A stretch of DNA of 64,000 nucleotides, taken from assembly GCA_024742275.1 (NCBI GenBank), contig JANSYS010000001.1:186001-250000 (forward strand). The letters are read 5' to 3'. This DNA is from Alphaproteobacteria bacterium. GTDB lineage: Bacteria; Pseudomonadota; Alphaproteobacteria; Thalassobaculales; Thalassobaculaceae. A model generated the notes under the pieces. The model was not told the origin of the DNA. It searched no databases and was given only the letters and a program-made list of their open reading frames with translations. Position 1 is the first letter of the stretch, and every line of letters begins with the position of its first letter. The position numbers and the translations under genes were made by a program. Shown one piece after another: positions 13,287 to 20,022 of the stretch.

Positions 13287-14594
13287 CTACTCCGCTGCGA
13301 CCGCCGACGGATTGTTCGGATGCTGGGTCCAGTTCCCATATTCGGCGGGAATGGTTCGCCCGGTCCGCGGATCTACAGTGCCGGCCGGAAGCTTTTCCAT
13401 CGTGATGCACCCGTCGACCGGACAGACGTTGACGCACAGATTGCAGGCAACGCACTCGGCATCGATCACCTCGAAATGCCGAACCCCATCCTTCATCGCC
13501 GTGATCGCTTGGTGCGAGGTATCCTCACAGGCGATATGACAGCGCCCGCACTTGATGCAGAGATCCTGGTCGATTCGCGCCTTGGCGACGTAGTTCAGGT
13601 TCAGGTACTGCCAGTCGGTGACGTTCGGCGTCGCAAGCCCGGTGAACGCGGCCGTATTCTCGTAGCCCTTGCCGTCCATCCAGCGGGACAGGCCATCGAT
13701 CATTTCGGTTACGATGCGGAAGCCGTAGGTCATGGCGGCGGTGCAGACCTGGACGTTTCCGGCACCCAGCGCCATGAACTCCGCAGCATCGCGCCACGTG
13801 GTCACGCCGCCGATGCCGGAGATCGGCAGACCGGCCGTTTCCGGGTCGCGGGCGATCTCGGCGACCATGTTGAGGGCGATCGGCTTGACCGCCGGACCGC
13901 AATAGCCGCCATGGCTTCCCTTGCCGTCGATCGTCGGCTCCGGCGCCATGAGGTCGAGATCGACGGAAGTGATCGAGCTGACCGTGTTGATCAATGACAC
14001 GGCGTCCGCGCCACCTGCCTTGGCGGCACGCGCCGGATAGCGAACATCGGTGATGTTCGGCGTCAGCTTGACGATCACCGGCATGCGGGTGTTCTGCTTG
14101 CACCAGCGGGTGACCATCTCGATGTATTCCGGCACCTGCCCGACCGCGGACCCCATGCCGCGCTCAGACATGCCGTGCGGGCAACCGAAATTCAGTTCGA
14201 CCCCATCGGCGCCCGTATCCTCCACCTGCTTGAGGATTTCGGTCCAGCAGACCTCCTCGCACGGCACCATCAGCGAGACCACCACCGCCCGATCGGGCCA
14301 GGCGCGTTTGACCGACTTGATCTCGTCCAGATTGGTCTGCAACGGGCGGTCGGTGATCAGCTCGATGTTGTTGAGGCCGAGGAGCCTGCGGTCGGCGCCC
14401 CAGATCGCGCCGTAGCGCGGGCCGTTGACGTTGACGACATGCGGGTCGAGACCGAGTGTCTTCCACACCACGCCGCCCCAGCCGGCCTGGAAAGCGCGGA
14501 CCACGTTGTACTCCTTGTCCGTCGGGGGCGCCGAGGCGAGCCAGAACGGATTTGGGGACTTGATGCCGACAAAGTCGCTGCGCAGATCTGCCAT
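13287..14594 (-). CDS. preA: NAD-dependent dihydropyrimidine dehydrogenase subunit PreA
   Basis: A 435-residue FMN/iron-sulfur subunit that, with PreT, interconverts uracil or thymine and the dihydro forms. Residues 1-~320 form a dihydroorotate-dehydrogenase-like FMN barrel, including VELNFGCPHGMSERGMG and VKLTPNITDV. The C-terminus carries two 4Fe-4S motifs: CIKCGRCHIAC and CVACNLCVNVC. The substrate-loop cysteine typical of these enzymes is probably in VPCEEVCW or GCPHG; I did not assign it. Gene lies 16 bases after preT. Confidence 0.93.
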   Translation of the reverse strand: MADLRSDFVGIKSPNPFWLASAPPTDKEYNVVRAFQAGWGGVVWKTLGLDPHVVNVNGPRYGAIWGADRRLLGLNNIELITDRPLQTNLDEIKSVKRAWPDRAVVVSLMVPCEEVCWTEILKQVEDTGADGVELNFGCPHGMSERGMGSAVGQVPEYIEMVTRWCKQNTRMPVIVKLTPNITDVRYPARAAKAGGADAVSLINTVSSITSVDLDLMAPEPTIDGKGSHGGYCGPAVKPIALNMVAEIARDPETAGLPISGIGGVTTWRDAAEFMALGAGNVQVCTAAMTYGFRIVTEMIDGLSRWMDGKGYENTAAFTGLATPNVTDWQYLNLNYVAKARIDQDLCIKCGRCHIACEDTSHQAITAMKDGVRHFEVIDAECVACNLCVNVCPVDGCITMEKLPAGTVDPRTGRTIPAEYGNWTQHPNNPSAVAAE

Positions 14595-14610
14595 GCTCTG
14601 GTCCTCCGTT

Positions 14611-15942
14611 TCACGCCGTCAGGGCGCGGTGAATGCTTTCTGCGGCGTCGCGGCCCTGGGCAACGGCGGTCACGGTCAGGTCTTCGCCCGCCGCCACGCA
14701 ATCCCCTCCGGCCCAGACGCCATCGACGCTGGTTCGGTACTCGGCGTCGACGACGATACGGCCGCGTTCGACCGCCGGTCCGTCGGGCGCTTCCAAGGTC
14801 TGTCCGATTGCCTTGAGGACGACGTCTGCCGGCACGAAGAATGTTTCACCGGTCCCTTCGAGACCGCCGGCACCCGCTCGGGTGTATTCGAACTCGACAC
14901 CGCGACGGTCCTCGTCCGCGACCACGCGGACCGGCCGAGCCCAATGCTTGATCCTGACTCCCCGCGTCTGCGCGAGATCCTGTTCGAAGCGGCTGGCGTT
15001 CATCGATTCCTGACCGCGCCGATAGACGATGGTGACGTCCTCCGCTCCCAGCAGTTTCGACTGCACCGCCGCATCGATCGCCGTCATACCGCCGCCGATG
15101 ACCACGACACGGCGCCCCACCGGCAGCGCCGACGGATCGGCCGCGCCGCGCAGGTCGGCGATGAAGTCGACCGCATCCCCGACGCCAACCAGATCCTCAC
15201 CCGGCGACTGCAGCGCATTGACGCCCGCGAGACCGATCGACAGGAAAACCGCGTCGTAGTCCCGCTTCAGATCGTCAAGCGACAGATCCCGGCCAAGCAT
15301 CCTACCGGTTTCCACGTCGATGTTTCCGATATCCAGAACGAAATCGACCTCGGCCTGGGCGAAACCGCCGGGCGTTTTGTAGGCGGCGATCCCGTACTCG
15401 TTCAGACCTCCGGCTTTCGGCTTGGCGTCGAACAGGGTGACGGCGTGTCCATGCAGCGCCAGACGATGGGCGCAGGCGAGGCCCGCCGGACCCGCGCCGA
15501 CGACGGCGATGCGCCGACCGGTCTCCGCCGCGGGCGTGTACGGATGGACGCTTTCGGCCATGAGATGATCCGTGGCGAAGCGCTGAAGTCTGCCGATCTC
15601 CACCGGCTTTCCCTCAGCGGCCTCGCGGACGCACGCCTCTTCGCACAGGGTTTCGGTCGGACATACCCGGGCGCACATGCCGCCTAGAATGTTCTGATCG
15701 AAGATGGTCTTCCCGGCGCCATCCGGATTGCCGGCGGCGATCTGCCGGATGAACATGGGAATATCGATCCCGGTCGGGCAGGCGGTGACGCAGGGCGCGT
15801 CATGGCAGAAGTAGCACCGGTCGGCGGCGACCGCGGCCTCGTGGCCGTCCAACGGCGGATGGAGATCGCCGAAATTTGCCGCTACCTGTTCGGACGTCAG
15901 CCTGCCGGCCTTCACGTCCGCTCCCTCAAATCCACGCGTCAT
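14611..15942 (-). CDS. preT: NAD-dependent dihydropyrimidine dehydrogenase subunit PreT
   Basis: A 443-residue flavoprotein that passes electrons between NADH and PreA. The N-terminal ~130 residues hold the cysteine-rich iron-sulfur domain (CYFCHDAPCVTACP, GGMCARVCPTETLCEEAC). A FAD-binding Rossmann motif follows (VVGAGPAGLACAHRL), then an NAD-binding motif (VVVIGGGMTAIDAA) and the C-terminal GGDCVAAGEDLTVTAVAQG. This order matches E. coli PreT and the N-terminal half of mammalian DPD. It is the first gene of preTA and diverges from a dehalogenase-like gene, with a RutR-like palindrome in between. Confidence 0.93.
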   Translation of the reverse strand: MTRGFEGADVKAGRLTSEQVAANFGDLHPPLDGHEAAVAADRCYFCHDAPCVTACPTGIDIPMFIRQIAAGNPDGAGKTIFDQNILGGMCARVCPTETLCEEACVREAAEGKPVEIGRLQRFATDHLMAESVHPYTPAAETGRRIAVVGAGPAGLACAHRLALHGHAVTLFDAKPKAGGLNEYGIAAYKTPGGFAQAEVDFVLDIGNIDVETGRMLGRDLSLDDLKRDYDAVFLSIGLAGVNALQSPGEDLVGVGDAVDFIADLRGAADPSALPVGRRVVVIGGGMTAIDAAVQSKLLGAEDVTIVYRRGQESMNASRFEQDLAQTRGVRIKHWARPVRVVADEDRRGVEFEYTRAGAGGLEGTGETFFVPADVVLKAIGQTLEAPDGPAVERGRIVVDAEYRTSVDGVWAGGDCVAAGEDLTVTAVAQGRDAAESIHRALTA

Positions 15943-15993
15943 GGCATTCTCCGATCGCCGGGCCTTTGAAAAAGCGTGCCTGGGGAAAAAAGT

Positions 15994-16009
15994 TTTATCA
16001 AGCGGTCAA
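15994..16009. promoter_or_regulatory. Candidate degenerate RutR box between preT and dehalogenase gene
   Basis: TTTATCA-AG-CGGTCAA matches 11 of 14 fixed positions of the RutR box and keeps the spacing. It lies in the divergent gap between preT and the dehalogenase-like gene, ending 18 bases before the latter's GTG start. A nearby CGGTCAA half-site also occurs near the main box at about 10445. Match is weaker than at 10403, so confidence is moderate. Confidence 0.5.
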
Positions 16010-16027
16010 ATTTATGGAGGATCGCCA

Positions 16028-16930
16028 GTGGGTTTTTTTGACGGCATGTCGCTGGAAACGATCGATATCGGTCCAAACCCATCGGACCCACGCCCCATCC
16101 GTCTGCGCCGTGGCGGCAGCGGTCCGCCGCTGCTCATGGTTCACGGCAACCCCCAAACCCATGCCATGTGGCACGCCGTGGCCCCGCGCCTCACCGACCG
16201 CTACTCGGTGGTTTGCCCCGATCTGCGAGGCTACGGCGGCAGCCACAAGCCGCCGGCGACGGCGGATCACGCTCCCTACGCCAAGCGCGAGATGGCACAG
16301 GATCTCGTCGACCTGATGACCCACCTCGGCTACGGGCGTTTTTCGCTGGTCGGCCATGACCGAGGGGCGCGCGTGTCCCATCGGCTGGCCATCGATCATG
16401 CGGAAAAGGTGGAGAAGCTGGCTCTGCTCGACATCGTGCCGACGATCGAGCATTTCGAGCGCGCCGATATGGCTTTCGCCCTGGGCTATTATCACTGGTT
16501 CTGGTTCGCCCAGCCTCACCCCTTCCCCGAAAACCTGATCGCCGCCGCCCCAGAAACCTGGTTCCGCGCCCATACCAACCGCGAACCGAAGGATGACGGG
16601 TTCTTTCATCCCGACGCGTTGGCCGACTATCTCGCCGCCGCGCGGGATCCGGAGATGATCCGGGGCATGTGCGAGGACTATCGGGCGGCCGCCACCATCG
16701 ATCTGATCCACGACCGCGAGAGCCGGGAGGCCGGGCGCCGGATCGGGTGCCCGCTTCTGGCCATGTGGGGGAGCAAGGGCAAGATCGGCGCGTGGTACGA
16801 CCCGGTATCGATTTGGGAGCGCTATTGCGATGGTCCGGTGACGGGTCGGGCCATCGATACGGGACACTATTTGGCCGAGGAGGATCCGGACGCCACGCTG
16901 GCGGCGCTGGTGCCGTTCCTCGCCGCCTGA
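16028..16930 (+). CDS. Alpha/beta hydrolase, haloacetate (fluoroacetate) dehalogenase-like
   Basis: A 300-residue alpha/beta hydrolase starting at GTG 16028, chosen because GGAGG lies seven bases upstream and upstream codons do not fit. It keeps the full fluoroacetate dehalogenase set at nearly the same numbering as the Rhodopseudomonas enzyme as I recall it: nucleophile D111 (GHDRGAR), carboxylate-binding R112 and R115, D135, halide-pocket H156, W157 and Y218, and catalytic H280 (TGHYLAEE). These enzymes hydrolyse haloacetates to glycolate. Related hydrolases exist, so activity is unproven. Divergent from preT. Confidence 0.75.
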   Translation: MGFFDGMSLETIDIGPNPSDPRPIRLRRGGSGPPLLMVHGNPQTHAMWHAVAPRLTDRYSVVCPDLRGYGGSHKPPATADHAPYAKREMAQDLVDLMTHLGYGRFSLVGHDRGARVSHRLAIDHAEKVEKLALLDIVPTIEHFERADMAFALGYYHWFWFAQPHPFPENLIAAAPETWFRAHTNREPKDDGFFHPDALADYLAAARDPEMIRGMCEDYRAAATIDLIHDRESREAGRRIGCPLLAMWGSKGKIGAWYDPVSIWERYCDGPVTGRAIDTGHYLAEEDPDATLAALVPFLAA

Positions 16931-17055: not shown

Positions 17056-17661
17056 ATGTACCGATACCTGCTGATTGTCCGCTTCGTGCTGATCAACGTG
17101 GTGGCGGCAGCGCTGCTGCTGGGGATCTACTTTCAAGGCTGGCTCGCGGCGGTGATCGGTGGCGACCTCATCGAACTGTCGGCGATCATCGCCGTCGTCT
17201 TCGTCTACGGTTTCCTGTACTGCGCCTTGCGGGTGGGACAAACCAGTGGAGAGCTCGACGACGTGCGTTCGGGCGAGCCGGAAGACCAGTCCCCGGCAGG
17301 CTCCTACCTGGAGAAGGTGCGCTACACCCATGATCGGGAAAGCCTGCGTTCGGTGCTCCGGATGCGGCTCGGGCGGCGCATCGCCACCGTGCGCCACATC
17401 GCCAACTCCCTCGTCTTCCTCGGCCTGATCGGAACGGTGATCGGCTTCATCATCGCGCTGTCCGGGGTGGACCCAAGCCGGGCCGCCGACGCCGACAACG
17501 TGGCCGACATGGTGGCCACCCTGATCTCCGGGATGTCGGTCGCTCTGAATACGACGCTCGTCGGTGCGGTACTCTACGTCTGGCTGATCGTGAACTATCG
17601 TCTGCTGGCGAGCGGCACGGTCGACCTGCTGACCGACACCATAGACCGCGGCGACGGGTAG
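17056..17661 (+). CDS. MotA/TolQ/ExbB-like proton channel subunit
   Basis: A 201-residue inner-membrane protein. Helices appear at about residues 5-26, 40-60, 117-136 and 153-180, with a charged cytoplasmic stretch from 61 to 112. The last two helices carry the MotA/TolQ/ExbB signature: FLGLIGTVIGFIIALSG with T127, and ALNTTLVGAVLY with T166/T167, the threonines that line the proton path in this family. It is smaller than TolQ or MotA and has no tolR/exbD/tonB annotation partner nearby except the next two genes. First gene of a three-gene run. Role unknown. Confidence 0.75.
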   Translation: MYRYLLIVRFVLINVVAAALLLGIYFQGWLAAVIGGDLIELSAIIAVVFVYGFLYCALRVGQTSGELDDVRSGEPEDQSPAGSYLEKVRYTHDRESLRSVLRMRLGRRIATVRHIANSLVFLGLIGTVIGFIIALSGVDPSRAADADNVADMVATLISGMSVALNTTLVGAVLYVWLIVNYRLLASGTVDLLTDTIDRGDG

Positions 17662-17670
17662 GATCGCCCC

Positions 17671-18270
17671 ATGGAGGACCCGTTCGAGGAATTCGAGGAG
17701 AACGGGACCGATACGGTCTTCCGCGACGTGATCATGCTGGCGCTGATCGGATTCGTCGCGATGGTCATCATGCTGCTACCCCATATCAGCAAGGAGAAGC
17801 GGGAGACCCAGGACACCAACGCTCCCGGCAACGTCATCGTCGAGATGCATTGGCCCTCGGACCTGGAGAACGATGTCGACCTTTGGGTGAAGGCGCCCGG
17901 CGAAGGGCCGGTCGGGTTCTGGAACCAGGGGGGCGAGGTTTTCAATCTGCTGCGCGACGATCTGGGGGCGATCGGCGATGCGACCAAGGAGAACTACGAG
18001 GTCAGCTACAGCCGCGGCATCCCCGCGGGCGAGTACATCGTAAACGTTCATATGTACGGGGCGCCTCCGAAGGATCGCGCGATCCCGGTCAAGGTCGTTG
18101 TCAGCGTAAAAAAGCCGATGGAAGAGACCCGGCAACTGCTGGAGACGACGGTCGAACTGTATCGATACAACCAGGAGGAAACCGCGTTCCGCTTTCGCCT
18201 TTCGGCCGACGGCGATCTGGTCGAGGACAGTGTGAGCACGCTGCGCTATCCGCTGATCACTGGACGCTGA
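17671..18270 (+). CDS. Single-pass protein with ExbD/MotB-like anchor and beta-sandwich-like domain
   Basis: A 199-residue protein beginning nine bases after the ExbB-like gene, with GGTAGGA before the ATG. After a short acidic N-terminus, one helix begins FRDVIMLALIGFVAMV. D19 sits where the proton-carrying Asp sits in ExbD (xDVMLxL) and MotB. Residues ~50-135 read like a YfaP/DUF2135-type calcium-protein beta-sandwich (VIVEMHWPSDLENDVDLWV, IPAGEYIVNVHMYG) rather than a peptidoglycan- or TonB-binding domain. Inferred to be the stator partner of the preceding channel subunit. No known family recognised with certainty. Confidence 0.6.
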   Translation: MEDPFEEFEENGTDTVFRDVIMLALIGFVAMVIMLLPHISKEKRETQDTNAPGNVIVEMHWPSDLENDVDLWVKAPGEGPVGFWNQGGEVFNLLRDDLGAIGDATKENYEVSYSRGIPAGEYIVNVHMYGAPPKDRAIPVKVVVSVKKPMEETRQLLETTVELYRYNQEETAFRFRLSADGDLVEDSVSTLRYPLITGR

Positions 18271-18309
18271 ACGACACAGGAACGGGCGGCCGCGCCTCAG
18301 GAGCAAGAA

Positions 18310-18828
18310 ATGGACAACCTGATCTGGGTTTTCGCCTTCAGCACCGGGGTCGCGGCGGCCCTGGCCAGCCTGGCGATCTGGGCGCCCCGGCTGCCCTGGG
18401 CGCGGATCACCGCGGTCGTCGCCGCCACCGCCCTGATCCCGATCAGCTACATCCAGTTCGTCGAGTTCCTGAGCCGCCCGAAACCGCAATCCATGGAGTG
18501 GATGCAACGCAACGTCGAGGCCGCCGAGGTGCTCGGCGTCAGCTTGGCCGAGGGCGAGGCGATCTACATGTGGCTGAGGCTGAACGGCGAACTGGAGCCG
18601 CGCTATTACAAGTTCCCCTGGAACCTCCGCCTGGCGGAGCAACTCGAGGAGGATATCGATACCGCCATGCAAAAGCAGGGAAAGCTCGTGCTTCGCAACC
18701 CGTTCGAGAACCGGCGGCCCAGCGAGTTTGGCGACCTCAACGTCGAGATCGTTCCGCCGCCACTGCCGCCGACCAAAGCGCCGCCGTCCGTACCCCGGTT
18801 CTACAACCCCCGGGACCGCAAGATCTGA
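18310..18828 (+). CDS. Two-helix membrane protein of the motor-like module
   Basis: A 172-residue protein of unknown function. AGGAG lies upstream of the ATG. Helices are visible at about residues 4-26 and 32-52, followed by a soluble domain of mixed charge and a proline-rich tail (PPPLPPTKAPPSVP). It follows the ExbD-like gene by 39 bases on the same strand and is likely co-transcribed. The soluble part begins with WMQRNVEAAEVLGVSLAEGEA. I recognise no family; it may be an accessory subunit of the proton-channel pair. Confidence 0.6.
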   Translation: MDNLIWVFAFSTGVAAALASLAIWAPRLPWARITAVVAATALIPISYIQFVEFLSRPKPQSMEWMQRNVEAAEVLGVSLAEGEAIYMWLRLNGELEPRYYKFPWNLRLAEQLEEDIDTAMQKQGKLVLRNPFENRRPSEFGDLNVEIVPPPLPPTKAPPSVPRFYNPRDRKI

Positions 18829-18891: not shown

Positions 18892-18999
18892 CAACGTATC
18901 TTCGTTACGATTTGCTAATCCGATTCGCATATAGCGACACGGGATGGCCTTCCGCCGATGCGGCGGGAAAGCTGGGCCGCTTCGGCTATGGAGAGCAGG

Positions 19000-20022
19000 A
19001 TGGGAACGCGTACCCGCGAGGACTATCGCAGCATTACCGGACCGGAGAAGGCCGCCATCCTCCTGATGTCGCTCGGCGAGCAGCAGGCCGCCGCTCTGTT
19101 CGGCCAGATGGACGACGAGGAGATCAAGGAAATCTCCCAGGTCATGGCCGGTCTCGGCATGGTCTCGTCGAACATCGTCGAACGTCTCTTCGTGGAATTC
19201 GCCGAACAGGTATCGTCGACCGGATCGCTCGTCGGCTCCATGGATTCCACCCAGCGCCTTCTGGCCAAGGTGCTTGGGGAAGATCGAGTCGAGGACATCA
19301 TGGAGGAGATCCGCGGTCCCGCGGGTCGCACCATGTGGGACAAGCTGGCGAATGTCAGCGAGCAGGTCCTGGCGAACTACCTGAAGAACGAGTATCCGCA
19401 GACCGTCGCCGTCATCCTCGGCAAGATCCAGCAGGGCCACGCGGCCAAGGTGCTGGCCACCCTGCCCGAGAACTTCGCCATGGAAGTGGTGATGCGCATG
19501 CTGCGGATGGAGGCGGTGAACAAGGAGATCGAGAAGGACGTGGAGCGGGTTCTGCGCACCGAGTTCATGTCGAACCTCGCGCGGACCAACCGGCGCGACA
19601 GCCACGAGATGATGGCCGAGATCTTCAACAGCCTCGACCGCGCCACCGAGAGCCGGTTCCTGTCGGCCCTGGAAGAACGCAACAAGGACAGCGCCGAGAA
19701 GATCCGATCGCTGATGTTCACCTTCGAGGATCTGAACCGGCTGGATCCGGCCAGCGTTCAGACGCTGCTGCGCGCGGTCGACAAGGACAAGCTGATGATC
19801 GCCCTCAAAGGCGCGTCGGAGGAGTTGCGCGACCTGTTCTTCTCCAACATGTCGGAGCGCGCGGCCAAGCTGATGCGCGAGGACATGCAGTCGCTCGGCC
19901 CGATCCGCCTCAAGGACGTGGAAGACAGCCAGACCGCCATGGTGCAGTCGGCCAAGGACCTGGCTGACCGGGGCGAGATCGTGCTCGGCGGCTCCAGCGG
20001 CGACGACCAGCTCGTCTACTGA
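19000..20022 (+). CDS. fliG: Flagellar motor switch protein FliG
   Basis: A 340-residue FliG, the rotor protein that converts stator force into rotation and sets direction. N-terminal [21 protein letters not shown], the middle-domain [12 protein letters not shown] (the usual EHPQ motif, altered to EYPQ) and the C-terminal torque helix region [27 protein letters not shown] are all present. Start ATG 19000 has GGAG at 18990; in-frame upstream codons lack one. Unusually no fliF, fliH, fliN or other flagellar gene is beside it. A motor-like channel module lies directly upstream on the same strand. Confidence 0.92.

Follow-up and report, generated by a model that had tools for sequence, protein, structure and literature searches.

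The window, the whole stretch of 64,000 nucleotides of alphaproteobacterial DNA that was analysed, contains three tightly spaced genes on the plus strand, whose coordinates and frames were given correctly in the original prediction. The first, gene A (17056..17661), codes for a 201-aa channel subunit of the MotA/TolQ/ExbB family. It is followed by gene B (17671..18270), coding for a 199-aa single-helix partner with an aspartate and a DUF2135-type beta-sandwich, and by gene C (18310..18828), whose 172-aa two-helix product has an alpha/beta domain and a proline-rich tail. Within B, the codon of Asp19, the putative proton carrier, lies at 17725..17727 (plus strand), and a putative metal site at 17872..18000 on the same strand holds D68, D70, D96, D97, D103, N108 and E110. 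The gene fliG (18958-20022, plus strand) starts 129 bases past C. The reading frame of A is open upstream as far as 16669, so that the ATG at 17056 is a choice; this start agrees with where the relatives align.

The genome to which the window belongs (4.69 Mb) holds five PF01618 genes, among which A is the weakest match. NCBIfam identifies two of the other four as TolQ and MotA, and on reading, TolR-like and MotB-like frames come after them. Since TolQ and MotA genes are thus present elsewhere, A-B-C is a further, separate system.

Gene A matches PF01618 in Pfam with an E-value of 2.4e-10 (40.7 bits against a cut-off of 22.9), and its product has four helices by eye. T127 is nearly invariant and T166/T167 are invariant in 71 rows, which bears out the earlier assignment to the channel family with both threonine positions. 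With these threonines in TM3 and TM4 and an Asp at the start of the partner helix, the pattern of a 5:2 motor is present. Compared with solved structures, a profile of A (16 rows) finds MotA (8gqy, 2.3e-4), with PomA and ZorA weaker. ExbB and TolQ have a Glu at the position equivalent to 162 of A; in the 71 bacterial rows, this position is Val, Thr or Ile (one Leu), never Glu. The matches of A also include two proteins with a MotA/TolQ/ExbB domain, PDB 8vvn chain C (696 aa) and 8vvi chain F (378 aa).

The model of B (pLDDT 86) consists of a single long helix (residues 12-49) and of strands between residues 54 and 177. The surroundings of the aspartate read F-R-D19-V-I-M-L. D19 is invariant in the 86 bacterial rows of the alignment, which represents 86 of 96 loci after exclusion of near-copies and cut loci, and is kept in 18/18 rows of a second fetch, 6/6 rows of phage isolates and 107/113 viral rows. 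The helix with its Asp is thus as originally described, and so is the departure of the outer domain from the ExbD, TolR or MotB type. B scores above no family cut-off in Pfam or NCBIfam and gives no match to ExbD/TolR (PF02472) at E-values up to 1; nor was the OmpA-type peptidoglycan-binding domain of MotB found, with no family match and a beta-sandwich in the model.

The proposed likeness to DUF2135/YfaP is weak in Pfam and firm in the comparison of profiles. The Pfam DUF2135 model does not match B of the window itself and matches four of 16 rows, with a best E-value of 0.033. An earlier hhalign run with 86 rows of B against DUF2135/YfaP gave 94.5%. With 224 rows, the outer domain aligns with DUF2135 over 117 columns at 97.5% (E-value 6.8e-12), the reversed control reaching 0.2%. 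The input comprised 15 of 17 DUF2135 and 23 of 26 TerD stretches, out-of-register ones being dropped. The top structural matches of B are three TerD-family proteins (Z 9.2-10.1 over 127-140 residues), and further ones are a radial-spoke chain (Z 8.4) and DUF4425 (Z 6.9); Foldseek with the B model gave no match below an E-value of 0.001. Membership of B in TerD (PF02342) was rejected, as hhalign gives only 0.7% and 2%, and the likeness is one of fold only. The sole PDB match of B below 0.01, a BMC fusion (0.0037), is judged to be chance, with an E-value of 0.72 from profile A7, which is built from seven phage and three bacterial rows.

Five acids of the outer domain (D68, D70, D96, D97 and E110) are invariant in 223/223 rows, some of which are duplicates, and D103 and N108 nearly so; these residues are mostly retained in viral rows too. 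From the sequences, this cluster is a putative metal site. TerD is calcium-binding, and by analogy the metal is possibly Ca2+, although the TerD kinship, the main hint for it, is unseen by sequence (2%). The original prediction of a motor with a new output domain stood in one half: the fold is not new, being a diverged sandwich of the DUF2135/YfaP type, whereas its use as the output of a motor is new as far as our searches show.

The two helices and the proline-rich tail ascribed to C are both found, the helices in a weak model (pLDDT 73, pTM 0.54). No family of Pfam or NCBIfam scores above its cut-off, the best Foldseek E-value with this model is 0.06, and no PDB sequence match was obtained. 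The loop between the helices carries on average 2.9 Lys/Arg and zero acids, and the N-terminus is without Lys/Arg, which would place both ends outside. The stretch past the second helix also carries 2.05 Lys/Arg, however, which speaks against such a placement, and a domain on the outer side of the membrane is a guess.

At least 546 relatives were confirmed in named genomes, for the most part Alphaproteobacteria, and the best 80 loci were kept. A was recovered in 79 of these best 80 and C in 78. The one locus without A (L040) and the two without C (L037, L079) have the gap at or close to a contig end, and C of L051 sits 3.7 kb away. Measured from the stop codon to the start of the next gene's profile match, the gap between A and B is at most 60 nt in 78/79 of these loci (an overlap in 72/79) and that between B and C in 74/78. 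The order A-B-C is nearly universal, a single bacterial locus (L013) being A-C-B. No other gene has a fixed place near the trio among clusters of six or more of these 80 loci, and antisense clusters within the trio were taken for shadow frames. Conservation, on which the original prediction depended, thus extends well beyond the genome of origin: A-B-C is a real conserved three-gene unit, and in bacteria a stand-alone chromosomal system. Seven plasmid records also match, all from Azospirillum. In 61 genomes, the genome of the window counted, B was found in 16, with A adjoining in 16/16 and C in 13/16. B was matched in 39/289 genomes of the class (weakest match 8e-4), and 15/299 genomes in a draw from the phylum match profile A7, two of them weakly, via DUF2135 proteins.

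A second, diverged bacterial set was represented by 15 of 18 loci fetched. A is found in 14 of these 15, with no contig end to explain its loss in L120, and C in 13, the contigs of L118 and L120 ending at or shortly past B. A putative lipoprotein gene lies 3' of C in seven of the 15 loci (L106, L107, L109, L113, L119, L121 and L122), which is a hint of an outer-membrane partner. Six of these lipoproteins were scanned for PF21347 (DUF3108-like), with one above the cut-off, one at it and four below. L113 has three copies of the DUF3108-like putative lipoprotein gene. In L116 and L117, a MotA-like gene stands with a B-like and, by eye, a C-like gene; the B-like protein of L116 comes near the Pfam cut-off for DUF2135 (21.5 against 22 bits).

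The trio is also carried by phages, which goes beyond what the original prediction saw. Twelve phage records match B of the window and 27 match B of contig L315, some being GenBank/RefSeq copies, and all are Rhizobium or Sinorhizobium phages by organism name. Eleven records of 59 to 171 kb were inspected (16-3, NV1.1.1, X2_25, N3_13, Y68, TM3_3_14B, AP-16-3, RL2RES, I1_18, P10VF and N34), and all eleven have the trio in the order A-B-C, its genes annotated as ‘hypothetical protein’ or with bare numbers. As annotated, the A proteins of phage isolates are very small (138-158 aa), and B of AP-16-3 begins within the helix. Against the bacterial profile, C of N3_13 and Y68 matches weakly (E-values of 0.004 and 0.0024), stronger phage C scores coming from profiles that already include phage rows.

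Two scans of IMG/VR gave 154 loci, 113 of them with a distinct B; the lowest identities of the first scan are near 28%. Among these 113, some of which are perhaps bacterial, 108 have A, 108 have C, 105 have both and 104 show the order A-B-C. The incomplete trios are in short or cut loci (L187, L203, L220, L222, L231 and L233) and in L225 and L232. Bacterial-looking contigs were retained in the count: L182 groups with the bacterial set, and ClpS-like, aldehyde dehydrogenase-like and similar frames were seen by eye in L261, L257 and L245. The 270 viral-contig neighbours scanned include portal, terminase, head protein, UvsX and SbcC/D families. The terminase family phrog_2 was found on 17 of 50 contigs tested, two of the matches being weak (E-values of 6e-6 and 7e-7), and all 17 contigs carry the full trio. 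They include contigs of 347 (weakly matched), 328, 256 and 242 kb, and the seven contigs that match phrog_979 are all among them. The firm phage set therefore consists of the 11 inspected records and these 17 contigs, the other 33 of the 50 being without viral proof by these tests. On the 242-kb contig of L288 (G638), 35 stop codons, with all three types represented, interrupt the terminase match at 13770-16451, which may point to an intron or an inserted element. Homing endonuclease genes lie between trio genes in the related phages L177 (6541-7083), L180 (5264-6022) and L176 (5270-6007); they are HNH and Seg-like as annotated, the one of L176 by eye.

The family of the channel subunit remains recognizable in these viruses. 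When 24 A proteins of phages and of contigs with a terminase are combined into a profile, it matches the solved motors MotA (4.4e-7), ZorA (1.6e-6), TolQ (3.5e-5) and ExbB (0.012); taken singly, 20 of the 24 match PF01618 at E-values up to 0.01 and four do not. A PHROGs scan of nine proteins (from the window, phage X2_25 and the 347-kb contig L215) gave one weak match, of A of L215 to phrog_2034 (E-value 2.2e-4), a family annotated as of unknown function. The TM4 threonine is Thr or Ser in 106/108 viral rows. At the TM3 site, 78 of these 108 rows have Thr, 29 have Asn and a single row has Met, and column 19 of B is without Asp in 6/113. Of the four Pootjesviridae proteins read, only that of N34 keeps the TM3 Thr; those of Y68, RL2RES and P10VF have Ala. 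The presumed proton path is thus largely, though not wholly, retained.

A quick tree of B was made from 111 rows (every third bacterial and every second viral row); it is unrooted, with long branches meeting. The bacterial group of the window is recovered as a supported set of 31 rows in which a single viral contig is nested; another group comprises most of the second, diverged bacterial set, and viral rows stand around both. At least five changes between bacterial and viral labels are needed, some of which could stem from misassigned contigs. Given the speed of the analysis, the long branches and the lack of a root, no direction of transfer is claimed.

It is quite likely that the trio is a motor. 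The genes touch or overlap and are conserved together, and D19 of B and the Thr positions of A persist in the bacterial and in most of the viral rows. Against this stand the exceptions at the TM3 Thr and the column-19 Asp in viral rows, as well as the four of 24 phage A proteins that PF01618 does not match. As the best explanation in full, a machine of the cell envelope, driven by protons and built as a 5:2 motor, appears reasonably likely. Five A subunits would form an inner-membrane ring around two B helices; the route of the protons would run by Asp19 of B and the conserved Thr residues opposite it in A, and their passage would turn or tilt B. The output would be the periplasmic sandwich of B, of the DUF2135 type and possibly Ca2+-binding. 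C, the constant partner, may be anchored next to the ring through its two helices and probably extends its domain and proline-rich tail into the periplasm; it would take or relay the force to a peptidoglycan or outer-membrane target.

Flagella, gliding, import, the upkeep of the outer membrane and defence are all known to use motors of the 5:2 type, and in the literature examined these are cellular in every case. That bacterial viruses also have the trio suggests that motors are encoded by some of them. Because the same trio is found in phages of several groups, an infecting phage may itself supply a motor that works on the envelope of its host; that the trio acts on the envelope for the phage has about an even chance. 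We lean slightly towards a wider view, in which phages, very large ones included, encode complete three-protein proton motors akin to MotA/ExbB, whose DUF2135-type output domain binds metal, and use them to power a change of the host envelope, the bacterial copies being drawn from the same pool and apparently exchanged more than once.

Other roles have been considered for the trio in phages. Superinfection exclusion or protection of the host envelope (conversion) is possible, if rather unlikely: in phage 16-3, the trio lies ~4 kb from immX, which we take to act in immunity, but it is also carried by phages of 150-170 kb for which we know of no temperate lifestyle.

A role in lysis, as a powered device opening the outer membrane or timing lysis, seems unlikely. 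It would fit the endolysin/lysozyme gene and the subsequent trypsin/HtrA-like protease gene found 5' of A in 16-3, NV1.1.1, X2_25, TM3_3_14B and the prophage-like L344. Among the seven phages first inspected, five have the protease gene 5' of A and N3_13 has one downstream; in the first viral scan, it precedes A in 7/65 distinct loci. In Pootjesviridae and N3_13, however, the trio stands among genes of DNA metabolism, flanked in four Pootjesviridae by a gyrA-type and a sigma-factor gene; in I1_18, tRNA genes come after it. A lysin relative occurs within 8 kb on the same strand in just 26/113 viral loci (six queries), a count without a null distribution that makes lysis a lead only, and bacterial loci retain the trio without any other fixed neighbour. 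By locus, the phage-borne trypsin/HtrA-like serine protease is placed directly before or near the trio in L175, L176, L177, L180, L181 and L344; in L344, its start resembles that of a lipoprotein by eye.

An ion channel with a metal-sensing outer domain, hence a sensor and not a motor, would account for the invariant acids of B and the very small A proteins of phage isolates. This is improbable, as the Asp/Thr pattern is that of the force-producing relatives. It is also very doubtful that the trio is an energiser of the TonB/TolA type with C as its transducer. TonB is a proline-rich membrane protein, as is C, the third member here, but TonB and TolA have a single helix, whereas two are seen in the model of C. 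No position within residues 1-55 of C has His in more than five of 81 rows, and no receptor gene is among the conserved neighbours; C was thus rejected as such a transducer.

A Zorya-like system defending against phages is highly improbable. In NCBIfam, A scores best with a ZorA model (22 bits, the cut-off being 100), and its PADLOC matches are ZorA models too (best 2.1e-7); however, the 201 aa of A compare with 383-1063 positions in the PADLOC ZorA models, C matches no PADLOC model, B no ZorB or other model of NCBIfam or PADLOC, and phages carry the trio. Finally, an accessory flagellar stator acting on the neighbouring FliG is scarcely credible, since fliG, on the same strand in all four B-bearing loci of the genus (L001-L004), adjoins the trio in the genus only, with no FliG match in 80 other bacterial loci (some cut short), and since B has no OmpA-type family match, motA lies elsewhere in the genome and phages carry the trio.

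The trio thus looks like a motor of the 5:2 type with a DUF2135-type output domain and, unexpectedly, like a phage module. Searches of the open-licence PMC literature gave no description of it, and returned no paper on DUF2135 or on TolQ/ExbB proton channels of phages. As a conserved trio with a different output domain, it is an additional system of its own, and it raises the question whether a phage brings its own motor, and driving what. As the trio is found in isolated phages, this can be tested in the laboratory, with phage 16-3 and its host Sinorhizobium meliloti as the model.

Among the known systems, ExbBD-TonB and TolQRA are, like the trio, inner-membrane sets of an ExbB/TolQ homologue and a single-helix Asp partner. 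They differ in the outer domain, which in B is of the DUF2135 type without an ExbD/TolR family match, and in the Glu that A lacks at position 162. C, with its two helices, is also without the conserved His described for TonB and TolA (PMC12204202). The flagellar stators MotAB and PomAB include the best solved-structure match of A, MotA, for bacterial and phage proteins alike; unlike them, the trio has a B without an OmpA-type match, a third protein and, as far as fliG was looked at, no flagellar neighbours outside the genus. A shares with ZorAB of Zorya a MotA-type channel and weak ZorA profile matches, but has no long tail, and B and C match no Zorya model in a trio that phages carry. The DUF2135/YfaP proteins, with which the outer domain of B aligns over 117 columns, have open frames of 272 to 1150 aa in those fetched, against the 199 aa of B, and only in L116 does the Pfam DUF2135 model nearly match a MotA-neighbouring B. 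Lastly, vWA force transducers adjoin tolQ-like genes (PMC12204202). They carry a vWA domain rather than DUF2135, and the passages on them mention no phage copies; like B, they set a different output domain on the Asp helix of such a motor (PMC12204202).
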